DNA from: a virus
Virus record (IMG/VR): IMGVR_UViG_3300034118_000953
Coordinates: 1 to 21,234 of that record
Strand: one strand, 5' to 3'
DNA length: 21,234 bases
Position 1 is the first letter of the stretch, and every line of letters starts with the position of its first letter. The translations under genes and the position numbers were made by a program. Shown in pieces: positions 2,944 to 19,103 of this stretch. The notes beneath the pieces are model-generated. The model made no database searches, was not told where the DNA came from, and saw nothing but the letters and a program-made list of their open reading frames with translations.

Positions 2944-3798
2944 ATGCCACTAGACTTCCCAAACTCACCATTCGTAGGTCAGGTATTCACAAGCGGATCC
3001 AGTTCTTGGATCTGGGATGGAACCGCGTGGAATGTCACATCGAATGCTCTTGCGGTTGCCACAGGTGCAACGGGAGCCACAGGTGCAACGGGAGCCACGG
3101 GTGCAACTGGTCCCGCTGGTGCTACGGGAGCAACAGGACCGACAGGTGCTACTGGTACAACAGGAGCCACAGGTGCAACAGGACCGACAGGGGCAACAGG
3201 ACCGACAGGGGCAACAGGACCGACAGGGGCAACTGGTGCAACAGGAGCCACAGGTCCGCTTCCCACGAACTTCGTCTTGTCCTTCAATGGCATCACGGGT
3301 GCTATTGGGCTAACTGCTGGAACCAACATCAGCATCACCCAAAGCGGTCAGACATTCACCATAGGGGTGACTGGCATAGTTGGTGGCGGTGGCGGTGGCG
3401 CAACTGGCGCAACTGGTGCAACAGGACCGACAGGAGCCACAGGTGCAACAGGACCGACAGGGGCAACAGGAGCCACAGGTGCAACAGGACCGACAGGGGC
3501 AACTGGCGCAACTGGTGCAACTGGTGCAACAGGACCGACAGGGGAAACAGGAGCCACAGGTGCAACAGGAGCCACAGGTCCGCTTCCCACTAATTTTGTC
3601 TTGTCCTTCAACGGACTTACTGGTCCTATAGGAATCAGTGCGGGATCCAATGTCACCATCACCCAAAGCGGTCAGACATTCACCATCTCCTCGTCTGGTG
3701 GGGGTGGTGGTGGTGGAGCCACTGGTCCCACAGGTCCAACTGGACCAGCGGGTGGAGTCGATGAAGGATTCGTTATTGCAATGGCTATCGCGTTATAG
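2944..3798 (+). CDS. Collagen-like tail fibre with duplicated module
   Basis: A 284-aa fibre protein. The start [14 protein letters not shown] with W-I-W-D-G-T-A-W (residues 2-29) is the usual N-terminus of phage structural proteins that attach to the virion. Residues 41-105 and 153-213 are collagen-like (GAT/GPT triplets). Each is followed by a copy of a module reading [12 protein letters not shown]-x-x-x-G-x-x-A-G, then [10 protein letters not shown] (106-140 and 214-248). Polyglycine linkers follow each module. The C-terminus is a short hydrophobic tail ([10 protein letters not shown]). It starts three bases after the upstream stop. The triplet arrays can change length by slippage, so fibre length may vary between relatives. 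Adhesion function is inferred. Confidence 0.8.
3064..3258 (+). repeat. First collagen-like triplet array (GATGPT codons)
   Basis: A 9-base degenerate repeat (GGTGCAACG-like, Gly-Ala-Thr) with 18-base higher-order units GGGGCAACAGGACCGACA. It encodes residues 41-105 of the fibre at 2944. The reverse strand reads as long valine/alanine/proline open frames, which are artefacts of the repeat. Confidence 0.9.
3400..3582 (+). repeat. Second collagen-like triplet array
   Basis: The same 9-base Gly-Ala-Thr / Gly-Pro-Thr repeat as at 3064-3258, encoding residues 153-213 of the fibre at 2944. One triplet has drifted to Gly-Glu-Thr. Near-identical blocks on both sides of the intervening module give scope for recombination within the gene. 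Confidence 0.9.
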
Positions 3799-10356: not shown

Positions 10357-10386
10357 GACCTCCCGAAACGGAGGTCTTCCTGTTTT
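10357..10386 (+). terminator. Rho-independent terminator after nrdJ
   Basis: Seven-base perfect stem GACCTCC / GGAGGTC (10357-10363 with 10370-10376), loop CGAAAC, then TTCCTGTTTT. The T-tract is imperfect, but its position 66 bases after the nrdJ stop and before a convergent gene fits. On the minus strand the stem has no T-run, so it should act mainly on plus-strand transcripts. Confidence 0.7.
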
Positions 10387-11860
10387 AGGGGTTCACTACC
10401 TGCGTGTACTTGACATGCAGGATGGGGAGGTTGGATACATTTCGTATGGTCATGGAGGAACCAGTTTCCGGCACTATGTTCCTGCTCAACCTGAGGTACT
10501 GATATGGTTTGTAGTTCTCCGTCGTTGTACCTGATTGTCCGAAATTTGTCAGAACCGACGAAAGTTGCTCGGGACTATTTGAAAATGCAAAATCGGCAGC
10601 GTTCACAACGCCGTCTTGATTTAGATCACCTGGCACATACAAGTTGAACTCTTCGGTGTAGTTTTCGTCATCTGGTATGCCGTCGAACAATGCTTCGACT
10701 CGGTATATCCCGTTGTTGGATGAAACAGATGCTCCTGTTATCTCTATGTACGAGCCAGCGGTGATTCCAAGGTTGTTGAATCCACCGAAGAACTTCTTGG
10801 AGAGAGCGTTGTTTTCTACGGTGACGTTGAGTGCAAGCAGATTGTCGGTTCCATATGATCCTGAGTACCTGCATCTAAGCACAAGTTCAGTGTTTCCCTG
10901 ACTGATCGAATATGGTTGTGTCGAAGCATCGGCATAGTTGATGTCGCCCCAGTTGATCTTTGCCGAAACCTGCTGATTGGATTTTGTTCCGTTGAACAGA
11001 GTGGTTTCCGAGAGGTTTTGGAACACGGCATCGTTTCCAGACACCCCCATGAACTGCAAGGTCTTGCTGGAGCAGGTGATTATGGTGGGTGATGATTGTC
11101 TGCTTGCGCTCAACGCCTCGTTGACGGGGAAAGTCTTCTCGTTGAAGGTGACCATGGCTCCAGCCGACAGACCAACGGCATTCAGCCAGTTGAAGGAACC
11201 GAATGACCTGATGTAGACCAGGTTGGTTCCCTGTGAGATGCCAGCAACCATGCTTGAGTTTAGTTTGAGGACTCCGTGGTGGAAGTTCTTCCTCAACGAA
11301 ACGGATGTGGTGCTGGGCATCGTCGTAACATTGGTGGATTCCCTGCTGTGAAAAGATATCCAAGCGGAGTCCTTGTAGAAATCATCATGGAATGGTTCTC
11401 CGCTCCCCCCTGTCCTCACATACTTGCTCTCTGAGTATTCAGGTACGGTTTCCTCGTTGTTCGGGAACAAATCTTGCTTCCCGAGGAGTATCATCGACAG
11501 CGTCAATCCACCATTTGACCGTGCTGCCATGAAATCGTTGACGAGAGCCTTCACATCCATTGTGTTCTTGTCGGATGGGTTTGAGAACACGGCGGTGCTT
11601 TCAGCCACGGAGTTTCCCACCGCGTACCCTCCTCCGTTGGACAGCGATTCGGCTTCATTGGTTCTGGCTGCGCCCACACCTGGAAAGTCGGGGAAGAACT
11701 GTTGTGCCTTCGGTATCGGATTCTGCACTGGTGAATGAACCAGGCTTGCAAAGAGGGGATCCTGCACCTCATGGGGGATTACAGAGTTCTTCTGATACCA
11801 GTTCACCTGATCGTTGATGTCTGTTCCGGCAAGCCTTGCCTGTATCGGTTTAGGTTCCAT
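10385..11860 (-). CDS. Virion- or surface-type protein with a dockerin-like calcium loop
   Basis: A 491-aa protein of mostly beta-rich, low-charge sequence. Residues 411-426 (about 10583-10630) read G-D-L-N-Q-D-G-V-V-N-A-A-D-F-A-F. This is the D-x-N-x-D-G-x-x-x-x-x-D calcium-binding loop of type I dockerins, followed by L-S-S-V-L-T-N-F-G as in the dockerin-like tails of many secreted bacterial proteins. Only one copy is present, whereas classical cellulosome dockerins have two. Before it (about 260-400) are beta-sandwich-like stretches, including G-S-Y-I-E-I-T-G-A. GGAG sits 8 bases before ATG 11860. It is the last gene of a minus-strand operon after the large barrel-like protein, so it may work with that protein in the virion. 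Function otherwise unknown. Confidence 0.65.
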   Translation of the reverse strand: MEPKPIQARLAGTDINDQVNWYQKNSVIPHEVQDPLFASLVHSPVQNPIPKAQQFFPDFPGVGAARTNEAESLSNGGGYAVGNSVAESTAVFSNPSDKNTMDVKALVNDFMAARSNGGLTLSMILLGKQDLFPNNEETVPEYSESKYVRTGGSGEPFHDDFYKDSAWISFHSRESTNVTTMPSTTSVSLRKNFHHGVLKLNSSMVAGISQGTNLVYIRSFGSFNWLNAVGLSAGAMVTFNEKTFPVNEALSASRQSSPTIITCSSKTLQFMGVSGNDAVFQNLSETTLFNGTKSNQQVSAKINWGDINYADASTQPYSISQGNTELVLRCRYSGSYGTDNLLALNVTVENNALSKKFFGGFNNLGITAGSYIEITGASVSSNNGIYRVEALFDGIPDDENYTEEFNLYVPGDLNQDGVVNAADFAFSNSPEQLSSVLTNFGQSGTTTENYKPYQYLRLSRNIVPETGSSMTIRNVSNLPILHVKYTQVVNP

Positions 11861-11885: not shown

Positions 11886-13904
11886 TCATATCACACCTGA
11901 TCCACCAATAGTGTTGGTGTCCTGCTCCACGAATACTGGTGGAGTTGGTGCGTTGGTGTAAATCCAAGCCCCCCGACCGCCGTCGTCAAAGACCACGTTT
12001 TTGCTGTTGGGGTCACTCGCATCCGAATACGTCCAGTTGTTTTCACTGTTTATCGGTGTGAACCTCCAGACGTACAGATGTTCAGAACCAGGCTTGGTTG
12101 GGCATCCACTCACGATATACCTTGTGAGGAAGTTTACCCTGTCTGTGTTCAGACTGTGAATCCTAAAGCCACCTATCCTTTGATTTATGTCGGCTAGAAC
12201 TTCGTTCATCCTCTCAAAGTTTGCGTTTCTCGTGTTCTGATCTGGCTCCGATGTGTTCCACCAGTTGAACATCTCTAGGTTCATGAAACTTGCATGGCGA
12301 ACCAGTTCGTAAAACAGTTCTCTATCTTCTGTTCCAAATCGAGATCCGAATTGTGCATCATCTGCACTCAACTCTATACTCGACAACCAGTGTCTCATCG
12401 GAAGATTCGGTGAACTCCTCTTAGCCATACGCATTTTGTGTATTTGAACCATGAACTGATTCCACACCGTGTCTAGGAATTGCACTCCACCCCCGTTGGC
12501 GGCAGCATAGTCGTTCCACACCAGCCGAGTTGGATCGTTGTTCAAAACTTGATATACGTTTGGAAAATTCCATCCCCCATAGAGGAACAGCGATCCTGCG
12601 TTTCCATTGTGAGCATCAATCCACATTGGATGACCGTCTACTGTGTACGCCTCATTTTCGGGGGTCATCTTCGACACATCGCCGTTGCAGATGTTTTGTT
12701 CGTTTCCGAACTTGCCTTTGATGGTCTTTACGACAAACTCCTCCATGAACCTATGGTTGAGGGCAATTGCAGCCCTGTTCCATCTGATGTAATCGTTTTG
12801 ATATTGGGGATGGTATGTCCTTGTGTACATGTTGGAGAAGTTGAGTGGGTATTCCCCGTCGTTCGTGTAGAGATCATTGAAACTCTTCTCCCCATACCAT
12901 GTCTGAGAGGCTCTTGGGTCGTTCACAATGTTGTTGATGAACTCATCCGTCCAACCGGGAGTACTAGTTCCATCGAACCTCGTAGTGGGAGTTATCCAAA
13001 ATCCATGAGAGATGTACTCACCTGGAGGGCTATTGATTGTGATGTAGTCTGGGATGGCTCCCGCACTCTTGAATGCATCGCAGATCACTTCAAACTCGTA
13101 TCTTGCCCTGATGCCAGCATTTTCTGCCCAAGGAGAATTCAGTCCCGTTACCGTTTCAGGATAGCCATACCTATCGGAGATCTCTTCAAATATCGGTGAT
13201 TGATCTAGTCGTGTTGTTCTCAGACATCTCTTTCCTGTTGGAAGTTCGGACATTTTTTGTACAGTGGCAACGAATCTGTTGGGACAGCCACTTGGGAAAC
13301 CGGTGATATAGGATTGCGGACTGCTCCATTCCCATCCACCATCTTGGGCGCAATCGAACATATGGATCATTGGTTTCACATATTCGTATTGATTGACATT
13401 TCCAAGAGACTCAGGTGCTAGCGTGTTATGGGGCGCGTCTGCTCCTGTTGGAATCCACGAAGCGATCCATATGTCCTGCTGTATGGCGGATGGATCGTAG
13501 GATTCGGTGTTCCATTCCCTGCTCTGCGCTACGGTTAGGTTCAAGTCAGCCTGGGTGATGGATGCACTAGCCGGAATGCCAGACATGTCGAATCCAATCG
13601 CAACTCTCGTAGGAGTCCTTGGTGCTATGGAGCCTTTGGAAGGATAGTTTGACGCATCGGAATGGTTCCATGGGTTCATGGCTCCGACCACCAACTGCGT
13701 TGCCGTGGAGGGGTTGTTCGACCCCGAAGTTTGATTCGGGATGTTGTCCCATCGGTCAGCCCCGACTCCAGGAGACGGAGTGTACCAGTAGAAGGTGTCG
13801 AAGTCGGCTATCCGTATGAACTCGCCTTCGGTTGTGTTCACCGAAGGAGAATCCCCTCTCCTTCGGTTCTTCGTGTTCCTTCTGTTTATGAACGGATTGG
13901 ACAT
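11886..13904 (-). CDS. Large putative glycosidase-like barrel protein
   Basis: A 672-aa protein with no signal peptide. It opens with a basic stretch (residues 8-16, R-R-N-T-K-N-R-R-R). Residues 100-125 (V-A-I-G-F-D-M-S-G-I-P, then A-D-L-N-L-T-V) look like a beta-sandwich domain. From about 265 to 580 the pattern fits a TIM barrel: a helix then strand D-Y-I-T-I-N with P-P-G-E (residues 286-296), W-I-D-A-H-N (428-433), L-F-L-Y-G-G-W (439-445), H-W-L-S-S-I-E-L-S (505-513) and L-E-M-F-N-W-W-N-T-S-E (543-553). Tryptophan and acidic residues at strand ends are typical of glycoside hydrolases, but I cannot assign a family or prove catalytic residues. It lies 3 bases after the upstream fibre-like gene. 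Cell-surface polysaccharide digestion is a reasonable inference. The DNA looks AT-richer than neighbouring genes. Confidence 0.6.
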   Translation of the reverse strand: MSNPFINRRNTKNRRRGDSPSVNTTEGEFIRIADFDTFYWYTPSPGVGADRWDNIPNQTSGSNNPSTATQLVVGAMNPWNHSDASNYPSKGSIAPRTPTRVAIGFDMSGIPASASITQADLNLTVAQSREWNTESYDPSAIQQDIWIASWIPTGADAPHNTLAPESLGNVNQYEYVKPMIHMFDCAQDGGWEWSSPQSYITGFPSGCPNRFVATVQKMSELPTGKRCLRTTRLDQSPIFEEISDRYGYPETVTGLNSPWAENAGIRARYEFEVICDAFKSAGAIPDYITINSPPGEYISHGFWITPTTRFDGTSTPGWTDEFINNIVNDPRASQTWYGEKSFNDLYTNDGEYPLNFSNMYTRTYHPQYQNDYIRWNRAAIALNHRFMEEFVVKTIKGKFGNEQNICNGDVSKMTPENEAYTVDGHPMWIDAHNGNAGSLFLYGGWNFPNVYQVLNNDPTRLVWNDYAAANGGGVQFLDTVWNQFMVQIHKMRMAKRSSPNLPMRHWLSSIELSADDAQFGSRFGTEDRELFYELVRHASFMNLEMFNWWNTSEPDQNTRNANFERMNEVLADINQRIGGFRIHSLNTDRVNFLTRYIVSGCPTKPGSEHLYVWRFTPINSENNWTYSDASDPNSKNVVFDDGGRGAWIYTNAPTPPVFVEQDTNTIGGSGVI

Positions 13905-13907
13905 GGT

Positions 13908-15485
13908 TCAGGTTCCGACATAGTAGAGGGTGAGACCTGCCATGGCAGACGCAAAGTAGACCTTGTTCGCATTGTCCGTCTCTATGAATATCTCGTCTCC
14001 GTTGTACAGAGGAATGCCGTTGGTGTTGCTGGATTGCATCGCTGCCGAACCGACGAACACGGGATTGGTGTTGCTGTTTCCGATGTCCGTCTTGAGGTGG
14101 ATGCCGCTCTTGAGGGCAAAGGAGCCGAAAGCCGCTGCCGTTGGGTTGCATGATACCCTTCCGCTAGTGATGCCAGTTGGCTGATTGACCGACACCACAT
14201 TCACTCGAATGGACGAACTGGTCGAGTCGAACGAAGACTCCACGGCAGCCTGTATCTTCTCAGCCGCAGCCGTAGTCTGCTCTATGCGGTTGATGACGGT
14301 GGGAGCATTGGCATCGTCGGTCCTGACGCGGTTGAACGAGGATACTCTTGCTATCGCTGCACCGAAGTCGGTCAACACGCTCATCGCGCTTCCCGTGAGA
14401 CCGACCTGATCTCCCGACGCACCGAGGACTCGGATCACCGCATTGACCGAATCATTGGTCGCGCTCAGGTTCCTGATGTCAAGGTCCGTAGCAGACACCT
14501 TGACTGGATTGGCATCCGCTCCTGCGTATCCGTGGATGGAGACCGCTCCTGCCGATGTTCCTGCCGCAGCAAGGGATACGCCCGATAGGGTGAAGTTCGC
14601 GGATGTGATGTTCGCGGTGACACCGATGCTTCCCGATGCAAGGTTCACGAAGAGGTTTCCGCTGCCATCGACCCTGAGAGGGACATCCGTGGAGCCAGTG
14701 CGACCCATTGCAAGCGTGGTGACGGGATATGCTCCCGATATGCCGACCACGCGGACGGTGTCCTCAGCCGATCCGACGAGCGGGGACAGTGCAGCCTCGC
14801 TGGAGACAGGGGTTCCGCCCGTGCTTGCCCTGAGAAGCCTTGTCTGGAATCCCTGAGTGATCGTGGTTGAGAAGGGACTCGACTGACCGTTCTGCACGGA
14901 GACCGTGTTCAGGACGGACATGCTGTCCTTGGTGTATGTGAGTCCACGGATGTCCAGAGCGGTGGCTGTGATGCCTACGGGGAAAGCACCAGATGCTCCG
15001 ATGACACGGACGAAGTCTGCCCCATCGTGGGCAGTTCCCGATGCAATCGACCCGCCTGTGAGGGAACGGATTCCGAAGTTTGCCGCAGTCACGCCGATTG
15101 GGAACGCACCAGATGCTCCGATGACACGGACGAAGTCTGCCCCGTCGTGGGCAGTTCCCGATGTCAGGATTCCGCCAGTGAGGGAACGGATGCCGAAGTT
15201 GGCAGCGGTGACACCGATGGCTGTAGCACCAGCGATTCCGAAAACTCCCATGTTTCCGAAAGTCTGCACTGCATTGGAGATGCTGGACACCGTCACGGTC
15301 GGGGTGTTGACCATCTGTACGGGAAGCCCGTTTGATGCCGTGACGCGATTGAAGTCCTGTGTGCTTCCATAGGCAATCTTCATCACCTGATAGTGCGCTG
15401 CATCCGTGGGGCTGTAGTCTGTCGCGATTACCGCGTCTCCAGAGGCTCCTGTGACCAGAAAGTTGCTGTCGATGTCCGTGGGCAT
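13908..15485 (-). CDS. Repeat-containing fibre-like virion protein
   Basis: A 525-aa protein starting M-P-T-D-I-D-S-N-F-L-V. ATG 15485 is chosen over the upstream in-frame ATG at 15629 because AAAGGAA lies about 9 bases before it and the longer version would run through the divergent promoter region and antisense to the gp33-like gene. The body is a string of degenerate repeats, each with V-R-V-I-G-A-S-G followed by G-V-T-A-A-N-F-G-I-R-S-L-T-G-G. Two are nearly identical (14986-15225). The last 80 residues, with G-I-P-L-Y-N-G-D-E-I-F-I-E-T-D-N-A-N-K-V-Y, form a small beta domain that resembles those at the end of other phage adaptor and spike proteins. It is first in a minus-strand operon with the two genes below it. 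Role as fibre or fibre adaptor is inferred. Confidence 0.7.
   Translation of the reverse strand: MPTDIDSNFLVTGASGDAVIATDYSPTDAAHYQVMKIAYGSTQDFNRVTASNGLPVQMVNTPTVTVSSISNAVQTFGNMGVFGIAGATAIGVTAANFGIRSLTGGILTSGTAHDGADFVRVIGASGAFPIGVTAANFGIRSLTGGSIASGTAHDGADFVRVIGASGAFPVGITATALDIRGLTYTKDSMSVLNTVSVQNGQSSPFSTTITQGFQTRLLRASTGGTPVSSEAALSPLVGSAEDTVRVVGISGAYPVTTLAMGRTGSTDVPLRVDGSGNLFVNLASGSIGVTANITSANFTLSGVSLAAAGTSAGAVSIHGYAGADANPVKVSATDLDIRNLSATNDSVNAVIRVLGASGDQVGLTGSAMSVLTDFGAAIARVSSFNRVRTDDANAPTVINRIEQTTAAAEKIQAAVESSFDSTSSSIRVNVVSVNQPTGITSGRVSCNPTAAAFGSFALKSGIHLKTDIGNSNTNPVFVGSAAMQSSNTNGIPLYNGDEIFIETDNANKVYFASAMAGLTLYYVGT
14986..15225 (-). repeat. Tandem 120-bp coding repeat
   Basis: Two adjacent 120-base units (14986-15105 and 15106-15225) are nearly identical over their first 55 bases and similar beyond. 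A third partial copy starts at 15226. Each encodes a 40-residue unit containing G-I-R-S-L-T-G-G and G-T-A-H-D-G-A-D-F-V-R-V-I-G-A-S-G of the fibre-like protein. Confidence 0.85.
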
Positions 15486-15520
15486 GGGTGCTTGTTCCTT
15501 TTGATTTCTTTGGCTCCTTG

Positions 15521-15550
15521 TATGTATGCCCCTTGAAACCCGCATACATA
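15521..15550. promoter_or_regulatory. Mirror-image divergent promoter candidates (CATACATA)
   Basis: TATGTATGC (15521-15529) and GCATACATA (15542-15550) form a perfect 9-base inverted repeat with a 12-base spacer, between the minus-strand fibre-like gene and the plus-strand gp33-like gene. Each arm points GCATACATA towards one gene. CATACATA differs from the T4 late promoter TATAAATA at two positions. Using T4 geometry, transcripts would start near 15515 (minus) and 15556 (plus). The symmetry would also suit a dimeric repressor site. Confidence 0.5.
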
Positions 15551-15567
15551 GTGGTAAACTTGTCACC

Positions 15568-15783
15568 ATGATAAACCCAGAGCAGATATCGAACGCGGTG
15601 GAACGAATGGTCTCAGGTAGGGACATCACCTACATGGAGGCTGTCCTCGAACTTTGCGAGGAGGAGGGACTCGATGTCTCCCTCGTTTCCCGCCATCTGT
15701 CCAAGCCGATCATCGAAAACATAGAGCGAGAGGCAATGGAAGTGAATCTACTTCCAAGAAAAGAATCGTTGCCTCTCTCTTGA
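15568..15783 (+). CDS. 33: gp33-like late-transcription co-activator
   Basis: A 71-aa protein. In T4, gp33 binds host RNA polymerase and, with the sigma factor gp55 and the sliding clamp, activates late promoters. The core here, D-I-T-Y-M-E-A-V-L-E-L-C-E-E-E-G-L-D, then P-I-I-E-N-I-E-R-E-A-M-E-V-N-L-L-P, has the helical pattern that I recognise from the short gp33 proteins of cyanophages (Y-M-D-A-V-x-x-Y-C-E-E-x-x-L). Its place directly upstream of gene 32 also matches T4 and relatives. T4 gp33 is longer (112 aa), and no clear clamp-binding C-terminus is seen, as the protein ends E-S-L-P-L-S. ATG 15568 lacks a strong Shine-Dalgarno sequence; an in-frame ATG at 15526 lies inside the promoter candidate and is less likely. 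Family assignment is from pattern only. Confidence 0.7.
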   Translation: MINPEQISNAVERMVSGRDITYMEAVLELCEEEGLDVSLVSRHLSKPIIENIEREAMEVNLLPRKESLPLS

Positions 15784-15807
15784 CATACGCAGAACACGCA
15801 GTATACT
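15780..15807 (+). promoter_or_regulatory. Sigma70-like promoter for gene 32
   Basis: A perfect -35 box TTGACA (15780-15785), 16-base spacer, and TATACT -10 box (15802-15807). The -35 box overlaps the stop of the gp33-like gene. The predicted start is near 15814, giving a leader of about 45 bases before ATG 15859. That leader is rich in A and C, with few G or T before AAGGAG. Confidence 0.7.
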
Positions 15808-15858
15808 TCTTTCAGGTCAGACATCCGCACACACCGCACACACAAGGAGAAACAGCAC

Positions 15859-16791
15859 ATGTCGGATTTCGCAAGTTTCAAGAAGAACTCAAAGACAGCA
15901 GCAGCAACTCTTGCATCGCAACTCGAAAAGGTCGCCAAGGGAGGAGGAGAGAACTCCTACAAGGACGACCGATTCTGGCAGCCTGAGGTGGACAAGACGG
16001 GAAACGGCTATGCCGTGATCCGCTTCCTCCCTGCCCCTCCAAACGAAGACCTTCCTTGGGTTCGGGTCTTCAGCCACGGCTTCCAGGGCAAGGGTGGATG
16101 GTTCATTGAGAACTGCCCCACCACCATCGGACAGAAGTGTCCGATCTGCGAGGCAAACAACGAACTCTGGAACTCAGGGGTCGAGGACGACAAGAACATT
16201 GCCCGCAACCGCAAGCGCAAGTTGTCCTACATCAGCAACATCATGGTGATCGATGATCCGACCAATCCCGCCAACAACGGGAAGGTCTTCCTCTACCGCT
16301 ACGGCAAGAAGATCTTCGACAAGATCAACGACAAGATGAACCCCGAATACAAGGACGAGGATGCGGTCAATCCGTTCGACTTCTGGCAGGGAGCGAACTT
16401 CAAGATCAAGATCCGCAATGTCGAGGGCTACCGCAACTACGACAAGTCCGAGTTCTCCGCTTCGTCTCTTCTTCTCGACGGCAAGGACAAGGATCTTGAA
16501 GCCCTGTGGAAGACCGAGCACTCCTTGCAGGAGTTCGTCAAGCCAGACCAGTTCAAGCCCTACGGCGAACTCAAGACGAAGTTCCAGTCGGTGATCAACG
16601 GCTCTGGAACCGACAAGGCAGAGAACATGAAGTTGGACGAGGATGAGGATGCCCCGAAGGACTTCAAGCCCAAGTTCCCCGCAAAGGAAGCGAAGTCTCC
16701 TGGTCGTGAGCAAAAGCCGAAGATGGAGGAGTCTTCGGACGATGACAATGACGCTCTATCGTATTTCAACCGCTTGGTTGAAGAAGATTGA
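15859..16791 (+). CDS. 32: Single-stranded DNA-binding protein, T4 gp32 type
   Basis: Coats single-stranded DNA at replication forks and recombination intermediates and recruits other replisome proteins. The 310 residues follow the gp32 plan. The basic N-terminus (S-F-K-K-N-S-K-T, residues 6-13) corresponds to the cooperativity region. Zinc ligands are H73, C86, C94 and C97 (T4: H64, C77, C87, C90), with the second spacing two residues shorter. The OB-fold core contains R-K-L-S-Y-I-S-N-I-M-V-I-D and K-V-F-L-Y-R-Y-G-K-K-I-F-D-K-I. The acidic C-terminal tail (residues 288-310, E-E-S-S-D-D-D-N-D) binds partner proteins. AAGGAGA lies 8 bases before ATG 15859. It has its own sigma70-like promoter and a strong downstream terminator. 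T4 gp32 represses its own translation through an unstructured leader, which could apply here. Confidence 0.95.
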   Translation: MSDFASFKKNSKTAAATLASQLEKVAKGGGENSYKDDRFWQPEVDKTGNGYAVIRFLPAPPNEDLPWVRVFSHGFQGKGGWFIENCPTTIGQKCPICEANNELWNSGVEDDKNIARNRKRKLSYISNIMVIDDPTNPANNGKVFLYRYGKKIFDKINDKMNPEYKDEDAVNPFDFWQGANFKIKIRNVEGYRNYDKSEFSASSLLLDGKDKDLEALWKTEHSLQEFVKPDQFKPYGELKTKFQSVINGSGTDKAENMKLDEDEDAPKDFKPKFPAKEAKSPGREQKPKMEESSDDDNDALSYFNRLVEED

Positions 16792-16797
16792 TACATA
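16790..16797 (+). promoter_or_regulatory. Promoter-like octamer GATACATA
   Basis: GATACATA overlaps the gene 32 stop codon and matches the CATACATA element at 15543 and 18218 in seven of eight positions. If it works like a T4 late promoter, transcription would start near 16803 and end at the terminator at 16936. Confidence 0.3.
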
Positions 16798-16802
16798 TCG
16801 AT

Positions 16803-16936
16803 GTTCCTACCGCTCGTTACCGAGTCGGTCGTGGATGACAGGGCGAGTGACTACGCTATTCATCCCCGCGTCGAGAACTTACCCGATGAGGAGTCTCGCT
16901 GCCGAGCAGAGGGGTCGAAAGACCCCTCTGCTTTTT
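16803..16936 (+). ncRNA. Structured 3' region of gene 32, candidate small RNA
   Basis: The 168 bases between gene 32 and the next start contain no credible separate gene but several hairpins. ACCGCTCG / CGAG(T)CGGT with loop TTAC lies at 16809-16829, GGATGA / TCATCC within 16833-16865, CTCG / CGAG with loop CTGC at 16895-16906, and a perfect terminator stem at 16906-16936. It could be a long 3' untranslated region, or a separate RNA of about 134 bases from the octamer at 16790. I see no tRNA cloverleaf. Confidence 0.3.
16906..16936 (+). terminator. Strong rho-independent terminator after gene 32
   Basis: An eleven-base perfect stem GCAGAGGGGTC / GACCCCTCTGC with a GAAA tetraloop, followed by TTTTT. 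It is the strongest terminator in the window and separates gene 32 from the downstream gene pair. Confidence 0.95.
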
Positions 16937-16943
16937 CATACAG

Positions 16944-16951
16944 ACTACATA
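16944..16951 (+). promoter_or_regulatory. Promoter-like octamer ACTACATA
   Basis: ACTACATA sits between the gene 32 terminator and ATG 16960, where a new promoter is needed to express the next two genes. It shares the TACATA core with five other intergenic sites here. It is very close to the ATG, so a transcript from it would be nearly leaderless. Confidence 0.25.
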
Positions 16952-16959
16952 CCTTCAGC

Positions 16960-17271
16960 ATGAAGAGACGCAGAAACATCCACAACCAAGACTGCCATGA
17001 ATCTGAGTATTCGTTCATGAGACGAGTTGCCGATAGGTTGGACATGCCTTGGCAAGCAATAGTTTCAGATGAGAAATCGCTTGCTATTCTGCGTGAGGCA
17101 ATGTATGCTGGTATGAATGTCGCGGAGACAACGCGATTCTTTCAGGAGATTCTCGAGGAGAAGGACATCAGGAAGAAGACCAAGGTGAAGACACCTGGTC
17201 AGAAGATGGACATCTCCAAACGAAGCAAGCATTTCCCCACTCCACCATGTGACCTAGACTCAACTTCATGA
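16960..17271 (+). CDS. Small basic protein of unknown function
   Basis: A 103-aa protein, rich in lysine and arginine at both ends (M-K-R-R-R-N; K-K-T-K-V-K; S-K-R-S-K-H). The middle, about residues 18-70, is helical (F-M-R-R-V-A-D-R-L-D-M, then I-L-R-E-A-M-Y-A-G-M, then T-R-F-F-Q-E-I-L-E-E). Basic ends on a helical core could suit a DNA- or RNA-binding accessory protein, but no known motif is visible. ATG 16960 is chosen because it follows the terminator; the same frame is open back to 16801 but that part is the hairpin region. No good Shine-Dalgarno sequence is present. Its TGA overlaps the exonuclease start (ATGA), so the two are coupled. I do not recognise the family. Confidence 0.6.
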   Translation: MKRRRNIHNQDCHESEYSFMRRVADRLDMPWQAIVSDEKSLAILREAMYAGMNVAETTRFFQEILEEKDIRKKTKVKTPGQKMDISKRSKHFPTPPCDLDSTS

Positions 17272-17945
17272 CCTTCAACTACCAACCAATCGATCTCAAC
17301 CTTCCTCCGCTGCGATGCCTTGAAGGTGAGGAAGGTCGCGTCTATGTCACTCCCAACGGCATCCATCTTCCGTCCGTGACCACCGTCACTGGCTTCGAGG
17401 GGAAGGACGGGTTTGCCATATGGCGCAGGAAGAACCCGCTTGAAGCCGTCCGCGTGATCGATAGGGGGAACAGGATCCACTCCATGATGGAGAGCCTGTT
17501 GAAGAACGAACCCGTGCCTCTGACGGAGAATGCTGAGATCGACTCCCTCTACCACATGCTGAGGGACGATGCGGAGAAGAAGATAGGTCTCGTCCACGGG
17601 CTTGAACTACAGATGTGGTCCGAGCGCATCGGTCTGGCGGGAAGAGCCGACTGCATCTGCGAGTATGACGGGACTCTCTCCGTGGTTGACTTCAAGGGTT
17701 CGACGCGGGAGAAGACCAAGTCTGGCATCAAGAACTACTTCCAGCAAGCCACGGCATATGCCCTGATGTTCGAGGAGATCACGGGGATGAAGGTGGGGCA
17801 GATCGTGGTGCTAGTCGCATGCGAGACGGGAACGCTACAGGTCTTCAAGGAAAAGCCCATCGATCATGTCAATGGGCTTGCCAGGGCTATGCGTATCTAC
17901 AGGAACGGCGGAACCGAAGGGTTCGTCAGCCTCTTTGCTCAGTAG
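17268..17945 (+). CDS. PD-(D/E)XK exonuclease (RecB/Cas4-like fold)
   Basis: A predicted nuclease for phage DNA recombination, repair or host DNA breakdown. The 225 residues carry the RecB-type set: G-N-R-I-H71 (the G-x-x-x-H motif), E113 in G-L-E-L-Q, D128 in G-R-A-D-C-I, D141-F-K143 in S-V-V-D-F-K (the D-x-K core), and Q160-x-x-x-Y164 in Q-Q-A-T-A-Y. All catalytic positions are present, so it should be active. Similar proteins of this length are annotated as exonucleases in T4-like cyanophages, usually near replication genes. It has no iron-sulfur cysteine cluster, unlike Cas4. The start overlaps the upstream stop by four bases (ATGA). Its stop overlaps the convergent gene at 17939 by seven bases. 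Confidence 0.85.
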   Translation: MTFNYQPIDLNLPPLRCLEGEEGRVYVTPNGIHLPSVTTVTGFEGKDGFAIWRRKNPLEAVRVIDRGNRIHSMMESLLKNEPVPLTENAEIDSLYHMLRDDAEKKIGLVHGLELQMWSERIGLAGRADCICEYDGTLSVVDFKGSTREKTKSGIKNYFQQATAYALMFEEITGMKVGQIVVLVACETGTLQVFKEKPIDHVNGLARAMRIYRNGGTEGFVSLFAQ

Positions 17946-18160
17946 AATCCGATCATGGTCACACCTGCGGACCTGACTTCACGGAACTTCAGTTCGAGAA
18001 CCTGACCCGCTTGCAGGGCTACGGTGAATGTGGCTCCGTTGTCCCTACGGAAGGGAACCACGACTGCCGTAGCCGTGCTGCTCGTCGGATTGTGGATTGC
18101 CATCCCTGCGAATGAGATTCCTGCGGTCGGAATGGTGAATGCGTCCGTGTAACTGTTCAT
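17939..18160 (-). CDS. Small beta-rich virion-type protein
   Basis: A 73-aa protein reading M-N-S-Y-T-D-A-F-T-I-P, then F-A-G-M-A-I-H-N-P-T and Q-A-G-Q-V-L-E-L-K-F-R-E-V. It is entirely predicted beta strand, with no lysine-rich or enzymatic motif. The pattern resembles the small terminal beta domain of the fibre-like gene at 13908 (both have a short charged strand followed by a hydrophobic end), so it may be a minor spike, cap or decoration protein. AAGGAG lies about 10 bases before the ATG at 18160. It is monocistronic and has its own promoter candidate (CCTACATA on the minus strand). It ends inside the last codons of the exonuclease gene. Specific function is not known. Confidence 0.7.
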   Translation of the reverse strand: MNSYTDAFTIPTAGISFAGMAIHNPTSSTATAVVVPFRRDNGATFTVALQAGQVLELKFREVRSAGVTMIGFY

Positions 18161-18178
18161 TTGGGGGTTTCTCCTTGC

Positions 18179-18229
18179 CCTCTATGTAGGTCTCCGTGGA
18201 GTTGGGGACGGGTAGGGCATACATAGAGG
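18179..18229. promoter_or_regulatory. Second mirror-image divergent promoter candidate
   Basis: CCTCTATGTA (18179-18188) and TACATAGAGG (18220-18229) are perfect 10-base inverted repeats with a 31-base spacer, between the minus-strand gene ending at 17939 and the plus-strand small membrane gene at 18260. The right arm reads GCATACATAGAGG and closely matches GCATACATAGTGG at 15542. The left arm, on the minus strand, reads CCTACATAGAGGG. Confidence 0.5.
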
Positions 18230-18259
18230 TGGTTTCTAATCTAACACAAAGGAGAAAGT

Positions 18260-18397
18260 ATGGAACCTACAATCTTGGCATCGTTCGGTGATGTCCTCGG
18301 AACTACTTGGTGGAGTGTTTTGGTCTTCGTGGCTGGTGCTCTTATTGGCGCACCTCTCTGGACTTGGGTAAAGAAGTTCTTGCCCTGGAACAAGTAA
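18260..18397 (+). CDS. 45-aa single-pass membrane protein
   Basis: A short gene, well supported by the ribosome site AAAGGAG 5 bases before ATG 18260, a promoter candidate and a strong terminator just after. The protein starts M-E-P-T-I-L-A-S-F-G-D. One hydrophobic helix spans about residues 17-36 (W-W-S-V-L-V-F-V-A-G-A-L-I-G-A-P-L-W). The C-terminus is basic (V-K-K-F-L-P-W-N-K), which suggests that it faces the cytoplasm. I recall similar 40-50-aa membrane proteins with T-T-W-W-S-V and P-W-N-K ends in T4-like cyanophages, role unknown. A holin or holin regulator is possible, but one helix and no lysin gene nearby make that weak. It ends one base before the convergent endonuclease stop. Confidence 0.8.
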   Translation: MEPTILASFGDVLGTTWWSVLVFVAGALIGAPLWTWVKKFLPWNK

Positions 18398-18398
18398 C

Positions 18399-18998
18399 TC
18401 ACAGGACGACACGGCGTTCAGCAACGGCAGCGGCACGGATGCCGCTGCTTTTTCTTTTGGCTTCCCTCCAAACCTTCCGATATGCATTTGCCCTGTCTCT
18501 GTTGGCTTCCCGCCAAGCCTTCTCTTGAGCCTTCACCTTCTCCTTGTTGGCTTCCCGCCAAGCCTTCTCTTGAGCCTTCACCTTCTCCTTGTTGGCTTCT
18601 CGGTGCGCCTTCAGTCGAGACTTCACCTTCTCCTTGTTGGCTTTATACCAAGCCTCATTTTTAGCCTTGTTTTGTTCCTTTCTCTGCTTCTCGGTTAGTC
18701 CCTTCTGTTTCCCTTCCCCACCAATGGTCATGTTGTATCCGCCTAGACTCCCATGTGTCCTGTAGAGCCAGATGTAGTGATGCTCCATGAAGTTCAAAGT
18801 ATGTTCACCATCCTCGGACTCATACAAGGTCTCTATGGAGAAAGAGTCAACACCATGCTTCTTGATGGCACGGTGGATCGGATACTTGGGTTTCTTGGAT
18901 TGACTGATGTGTTGTGACCAGCGATTCTCAAGGGTTCTGCTGGTATAGCCGACATAGACGGGCTTGGAGTCCTTGCGGACAAGATAGATAGTGTGCAT
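18399..18998 (-). CDS. Free-standing GIY-YIG endonuclease with C-terminal helical repeats
   Basis: A probable mobile endonuclease that cuts related phage genomes at an uninvaded site, so that repair copies the gene in. The 199 residues start with the GIY-YIG fold: T-I-Y5-L-V and Y15-V-G17 as the two signature strands, R26 in N-R-W as the likely catalytic arginine, E72 in M-E-H-H as the metal-binding glutamate, and N89 in G-Y-N-M-T-I-G-G. Residues 119-182 are about four copies of a 15-residue unit, E-A-N-K-E-K-V-K-A-Q-E-K-A-W-R, which probably forms a long basic helix that contacts DNA. GGAGG lies 6 bases before ATG 18998. It is antisense to both neighbouring plus-strand genes, as expected for an insertion. 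Its last codons are the terminator of the gene at 18260. Confidence 0.85.
   Translation of the reverse strand: MHTIYLVRKDSKPVYVGYTSRTLENRWSQHISQSKKPKYPIHRAIKKHGVDSFSIETLYESEDGEHTLNFMEHHYIWLYRTHGSLGGYNMTIGGEGKQKGLTEKQRKEQNKAKNEAWYKANKEKVKSRLKAHREANKEKVKAQEKAWREANKEKVKAQEKAWREANRDRANAYRKVWREAKRKSSGIRAAAVAERRVVL
18427..18458 (+). terminator. Strong terminator for the 45-aa membrane gene
   Basis: A nine-base perfect stem GCAGCGGCA / TGCCGCTGC with CGGA loop, then TTTTTCTTTT. It lies 29 bases after the TAA at 18397 and sits inside the 3' coding end of the opposite-strand endonuclease gene. Confidence 0.9.
18453..18644 (-). repeat. 45-bp tandem coding repeat in the endonuclease gene
   Basis: About four copies of a 45-base unit that encodes E-A-N-K-E-K-V-K-A-Q-E-K-A-W-R. 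The two central copies are nearly identical in DNA, which shows recent duplication. The outer copies have diverged. Confidence 0.9.
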
Positions 18999-19095: not shown

Positions 19096-19103
19096 TATAG
19101 ATA
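19096..19103 (+). promoter_or_regulatory. Late-promoter-like TATAGATA
   Basis: TATAGATA differs from the T4 late promoter TATAAATA at one position. It lies between the hairpin at 19030 and AGGAG (19116-19120) of the gene at 19127, with predicted start near 19109, a sensible distance for a short leader. Confidence 0.4.

Follow-up and report, generated by a model that had tools for sequence, protein, structure and literature searches.

What is the short element, built around the hexamer TACATA, that recurs between the genes of IMGVR_UViG_3300034118_000953, a 21,234-nt IMG/VR fragment of a T4-like phage (the window, meaning this whole stretch), and does it direct late transcription? A first-pass annotation had noted six intergenic copies ahead of transcription units and proposed a drifted, lineage-specific late promoter. 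Comparison with related phages leads us to put at about 0.9 the probability that the element is a late promoter of the T4 type, one that would be served by the phage sigma factor gp55 and its co-activator gp33. The window has a GC content of 54%, the highest in its clade, and a megablast search against cultured phages returned zero matches; its single-stranded DNA-binding protein, gp32, is 50-53% identical to those of the Kyanoviridae, the nearest cultured family by this protein. A gp32 scan identified 29 close loci, designated clade A (gp32 identity of at least 77%), and further loci at ~60% identity, and a sister genome of 156.6 kb (G026) was located via gp33. Unbiased k-mer counting was applied to 12 clade A IMG/VR records, and phages T4, Aeh1, S-PM2, Syn9 and DSL-LC03 were passed through the identical pipeline as controls.

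TACATA occurs seven times in the window, once within a gene (minus strand, 10745-10750) and six times in the intergenic DNA that makes up 1058 of the 21,234 bases (5%, with ~95% being coding), a placement with a binomial probability of 1e-7, or ~2e-4 when corrected for the ~2080 possible hexamers. Shuffled versions of the window contain 1.99 copies on average (standard deviation 1.32) and 0 of 100 reach seven. TACATA is also the top-ranked intergenic hexamer of the window, in which TAAATA is absent. All six intergenic sites are where the annotation had placed them, each facing a transcription unit on the same strand. Its choice of CATACATA as the recurring element holds for the three sites that have exactly this octamer; the other three have GATACATA, ACTACATA and CCTACATA, once each, and what all six share is TACATA. 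CATACATA does agree with the T4 late consensus, TATAAATA, at 6 of 8 positions, and the gp33-like co-activator that had been read from the sequence is a phrog_254 homologue (E ~1e-16).

The annotation had named equal frequency in coding DNA as refuting its proposal, and the counts run counter to this. The unequal division between intergenic and coding DNA extends to the relatives, with a ~6-fold enrichment in density, and the motif is conserved across ~28 related loci. In the 12 clade A records, TAAATA ranks first among intergenic hexamers (80 versus 17 expected) and TACATA third (50 versus 12), in a list that also contains ribosome-binding-site and sigma-70 -10 words, and the leading intergenic 8-mers are TATACATA and GCTAAATA. 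Orthologous sites alternate among TATAAATA, CTAAATA and TACATA. TAAATA and TACATA interchange at the orthologues of 15543, 16790, 16944 and 18183, and TATAAATA and CATACATA do so at 15521. The clade consensus is N[A/C]TA[A/C]ATA, in which T-11, A-10, A-8, T-7 and A-6 are fixed and positions -13, -12 and -9 vary, the last being C, A, or occasionally G or T across orthologous sites. The enrichment of TACATA reaches 6.0 in clade A (window excluded) and 6.1 in clade B1, compared with 0.9 in T4, 1.2 in S-PM2, 1.4 in Aeh1, 2.0 in DSL-LC03 and 2.4 in Syn9; using C at -9 is therefore a trait of the clade A and B1 lineages. Judged by sequence, C is a clade-wide alternative to A at this position, rather than private to one lineage as had been suggested, and the consensus is not CATACATA. 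The pairing of C-12 with C-9 is rare, present at 6 of 142 sites in the 12 records, while each of the other combinations accounts for 40-42 (p = 2e-5). This would fit a single deviation from the consensus being cheap and two being costly; the double type occurs at two window sites and also in the gp18 promoters of sister phages.

The T4 late-promoter octamer covers -13 to -6 (PMC1524935) and, when run on the controls, the pipeline recovers TAAATA with A-12 in T4 and C-12 in Aeh1, matching that report. In the clade, 128 of the 142 octamers (0.90) face a gene on the same strand, compared with 0.39-0.75 among control hexamers chosen to share no overlap with it. The predicted +1, the sixth base past the octamer, is A or G at 89 of 125 non-leaderless sites, and the base before it is most often T. 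The genes downstream are also those expected of a late promoter: in the sister genome, TATACATA precedes gp22, CCTACATA precedes gp18 and GATACATA precedes gp3, and the sister phages for which upstream DNA is available keep TACATA forms at these places (TATACATA at gp22, [AC]CTACATA at gp18 and [GA]ATACATA at gp3). No octamer lies directly upstream of the replication genes gp43, uvsX, gp41, gp61, gp44 and gp45 of this genome; regA and thyX do have one. The sister genome encodes gp55, gp33 and gp45, and the window carries gp33. The interchange with TATAAATA at orthologous sites, together with TACATA before gp22, gp18 and gp3, supports the late-promoter part of the original proposal.

Some observations weigh against this conclusion. 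Searches with cyanophage gp55 and phrog_234 queries found no gp55 in the window or in the other clade A and B fragments searched. In most relatives gp23 and gp20 have no octamer directly upstream, and some late genes would therefore rely on read-through. A few clade octamers face the wrong way or are far from any gene, gp33 does not qualify as a late gene by strict T4 standards, and the gene starts used throughout come from a home-made caller. The clade gp55 itself is encoded at G026:104700-105218; it is 50-54% identical to cyanophage gp55 and has a lysine-rich C-terminus unlike the clamp-binding end of the T4 protein. Scanning IMG/VR for gp55 yielded contigs resembling those of cyanophages, and these results were taken no further.

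The octamers are A/T-rich and resemble -10 sequences, and the one before gp33 overlaps a genuine sigma-70-like promoter, so that they might be read as the -10 boxes (TATACA or TATAAA) of ordinary host sigma-70 promoters. This is very improbable, as TTGACA is present 15-18 bp from the octamer at 3 of 142 sites, exactly as often as in the off-register control (3 of 142), whereas the real sigma-70 promoters of the clade, identified in the same records by TATA[AC]T, form a distinct class with a TTGACA -35 element at 32 of 63 sites versus 2 in the control. The alternation of the octamer with the T4 late consensus and with the Aeh1-type CTAAATA also argues against -10 boxes. A short, conserved, intergenic motif could also be bound by some other phage protein, such as a repressor or a replication or packaging factor, but we give this even less credence, given the strand polarity relative to genes, the constant distance of 5 nt from the ATG in one class, the purine at +1, the location just past terminators and the identity with TATAAATA at orthologous sites. 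That the motif was chosen after the window had been read invites the suspicion of chance or of an AT-composition artefact, a suspicion refuted by the conservation at orthologous sites and by the shuffles, the k-mer ranking and the binomial test, and hardly worth retaining.

A separate matter, which concerns the cause of the change and not promoter function, is why the window has C at -9 at all six sites, including three at which relatives mostly carry A. C at every TACATA/TAAATA site is seen only in the window. With gp55 unchanged and the position tolerant, C could have accumulated by neutral drift in a GC-rich relative; the GC content of the window would be sufficient to explain the bias, orthologues have C, A and sometimes G or T at -9, and the probable seventh site in the window has G. 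The C to A ratio is, however, 6:0 in the window versus 50:86 in relatives (Fisher p = 0.003, a value that serves only as a guide since sites from related records are not independent), the GC-rich relatives G009 (50%) and G010 (51%) retain mostly A, and the gp22, gp18 and gp3 sites keep C in several relatives with 42-49% GC. Neutral drift has, in our estimate, slightly under an even chance of being the explanation, and the choice between it and a changed gp55 is about even. An alignment of six gp55 sequences revealed no residue that could be linked to the -9 preference. gp55 may offer a natural series for the study of sigma specificity.

If the element is a late promoter, core RNA polymerase carrying gp55, bridged by gp33 to the sliding clamp gp45, would recognise the single octamer at -13 to -6, use no -35 element and begin transcription six bases past the octamer, with the requirement at -12 and -9 relaxed in the clade from A to A or C. 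The late units of the window would then be a tail-type structural operon, gp33, a non-coding RNA downstream of gp32, and three small genes. Because the late octamer of gp33 is nested between the -35 and -10 hexamers of a sigma-70-like promoter, gp33 may be expressed early by host sigma-70 and subsequently reinforce its own late promoter. The sigma-70-like promoter is better conserved in relatives, with TTGAC.. and TATAAT-like hexamers at the equivalent places. Overlapping early and late promoters have been described for RB49 and S-PM2 (PMC2984593).

With the T4 late promoter the element shares a single octamer at -13 to -6, the lack of a -35 element, a location before late genes in either orientation, and the presence of gp33 in the window and of gp55 and gp45 in the sister genome; it differs in having C at -9 at all six window sites, A or C at -12 and no preference at -13. 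The late promoter of Aeromonas phage Aeh1, published as CTAAATA (PMC1524935), is likewise a drifted member of the T4 family and has the C at -12 found at 2 of 6 window sites and about one third of clade sites, but it keeps A at -9 and is not accompanied by TACATA enrichment. The Aeh1 combination of C-12 with A-9 occurs at none of the six window sites and is frequent in relatives. The cyanophages S-PM2 and Syn9 belong to the Kyanoviridae; their late promoter, NATAAATA, has A at -9, where the window has C six times and G at the probable seventh site, and their genomes lack a peak of octamers 5 nt from ATG. The clade would extend the T4 late-promoter code to -9, a position at which T4, Aeh1 and the marine cyanophages keep A, and its octamers provide predicted late-gene maps for a clade known from metagenomes alone. 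A literature search for CATACATA or TATACATA as a phage promoter gave nothing relevant among the matches listed. The phage-specific promoter of Pseudomonas phage pf16 (...GAATACATC) has a published consensus that includes ATACAT, and pf16 also possesses a late sigma factor (PMC5587285). It was rejected as a precedent, being a 28-bp consensus that ends in C, with 5 copies of ATACATA in 158 kb.

The distance from intergenic octamers to the following ATG has a sharp peak in clade A at 5 nt (16 of 124 sites, with one site each at 4 and 6 nt). The peak is absent in DSL-LC03, Syn9 and Aeh1, and S-PM2 and T4 have one and three such sites, respectively. With the sister genome and clade B1 included, 22 octamers are positioned at exactly this distance, spread over about ten gene families unrelated to one another, examples being L307:9140-9160 (gp3 of G026) and L005:11105. 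Besides gp3, the families include three with putative names read from the sequence and not obtained from a database: a RuvC-like protein, a protein resembling phosphoesterases and the gene downstream of the non-coding RNA. Ahead of gp3, six different sequences preserve the 5-nt distance, directly past a terminator hairpin. As the T4 octamer covers -13 to -6, the A of the ATG is the predicted +1 in this class, and octamers so placed would generate mRNAs without a leader. In the window, the promoter at 16944-16951 is 8 nt from its ATG and so a 3-nt leader is predicted. A literature search for leaderless T4 late mRNAs gave nothing relevant among the matches listed, and no prediction of this kind was found in the T4-family papers searched. 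It is possible, although we lean against the combination as a whole, that the clade has a late-promoter code of its own, with A or C at -9 and the window lineage fixed on C via a changed gp55, that makes leaderless late mRNAs by 5-nt placement of the octamer, both for structural genes, gp3 among them, and for other proteins.

Between gp32 and the next gene, the promoter at 16790 would drive a terminated non-coding RNA, a conserved phage RNA not previously described. Its terminator stem has compensating substitutions in 11 of 12 pairs and the structure is 91.8% paired overall (0 of 500 shuffles), and the body of the RNA is conserved mainly at the level of sequence. The RNA is single-copy and occurs in clade A loci, among them G026 and L018; no significant match was found among the clade B loci searched or in DSL-LC03. 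Rfam, at its gathering cut-off, gave no match for the window or for the RNA, and permissive Rfam matches in the region were rejected as being at chance level. Related phages whose gp32 is 60% identical have, immediately behind gp32 and in the place of the clade A non-coding RNA, a transfer-messenger RNA (tmRNA) gene, with the tag ANTVRLAA, and a tRNA cluster (L036:10916-11500, L034:7683-8267 and L037:5583-6240).

Table 1. Predicted promoters, genes and RNA of the window, with the forms taken by orthologous octamers in related phages
Feature	Position	Strand	Details	Orthologous sites
Predicted late promoter CATACATA	15521..15528	minus	predicted +1 at 15515	almost always TATAAATA; L028/L029 have CATAAATA; CATACATA in window
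Structural-type genes downstream of the 15521 promoter	13908-15485, 11886-13904, 10385-11860	minus		
Predicted late promoter CATACATA of gp33	15543..15550	plus	predicted +1 at 15556; octamer to ATG (15568) 17 nt	CATACATA, GATACATA, AATACATA, CCTAAATA, CCTAGATA or ACTAAATA
Sigma-70-like promoter of gp33, TTGAAA-16-TAAACT	15533..15560	plus	spacer contains late octamer	
gp33 late co-activator	15568..15783	plus	phrog_254	
Sigma-70 promoter of gp32, TTGACA-16-TATACT	15780..15807	plus	without late octamer	
gp32 single-stranded DNA-binding protein	15859..16791	plus	phrog_224, E 1.7e-115	
Predicted late promoter GATACATA	16790..16797	plus	overlaps gp32 stop codon; predicted +1 at 16803	mostly TATACATA; CATAAATA in G009
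Conserved non-coding RNA, ~135 nt	16803..16937	plus	intrinsic terminator at end, stem ~16904-16933	
Predicted late promoter ACTACATA	16944..16951	plus	predicted +1 at 16957, 3 nt 5' of ATG 16960	TAAATA forms, ATG exactly 5 nt downstream
Conserved 103-aa protein, predicted nearly leaderless	16960..17271	plus	most homologues 58-65% identical	
Predicted late promoter CCTACATA	18183..18190	minus	predicted +1 at 18177; 73-aa gene 17939-18160 downstream	GCTAAATA or ACTAAATA
Predicted late promoter CATACATA	18218..18225	plus	predicted +1 at 18231; 45-aa one-helix membrane protein 18260-18397 downstream	TACATA or TATATA forms: CATACATA, TATACATA, GATACATA or CATATATA
Probable seventh site TATAGATA	19096..19103	plus	23 nt before ATG 19127, past terminator-like hairpin	TATACATA in most relatives (24-25 nt before ATG); CATACATA in G016

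The remaining features of the window are listed in Table 1. The operon downstream of the 15521 site is of the tail-type structural kind. The 103-aa protein has no PHROG match. An open reading frame at 16801-17271, which begins inside the RNA region, was rejected as the start of this gene, as indels of the relatives in that region are not divisible by three and homology begins at 16960. At 18399-18998, a gene of the homing-endonuclease type (phrog_314), which contains an KEKVKAQEKAWREAN repeat, is inserted between two predicted late units that lie side by side in relatives. The first 56 positions of the window contain a long inverted repeat (ATCGGTCCCATGTAGCCGCGTTCG...CGAACGCGGCTACATGGGACCGAT) that forms a hairpin at the contig end and is possibly an assembly artefact, and positions 2944-3798 encode a tail-fibre protein with a collagen-like repeat.

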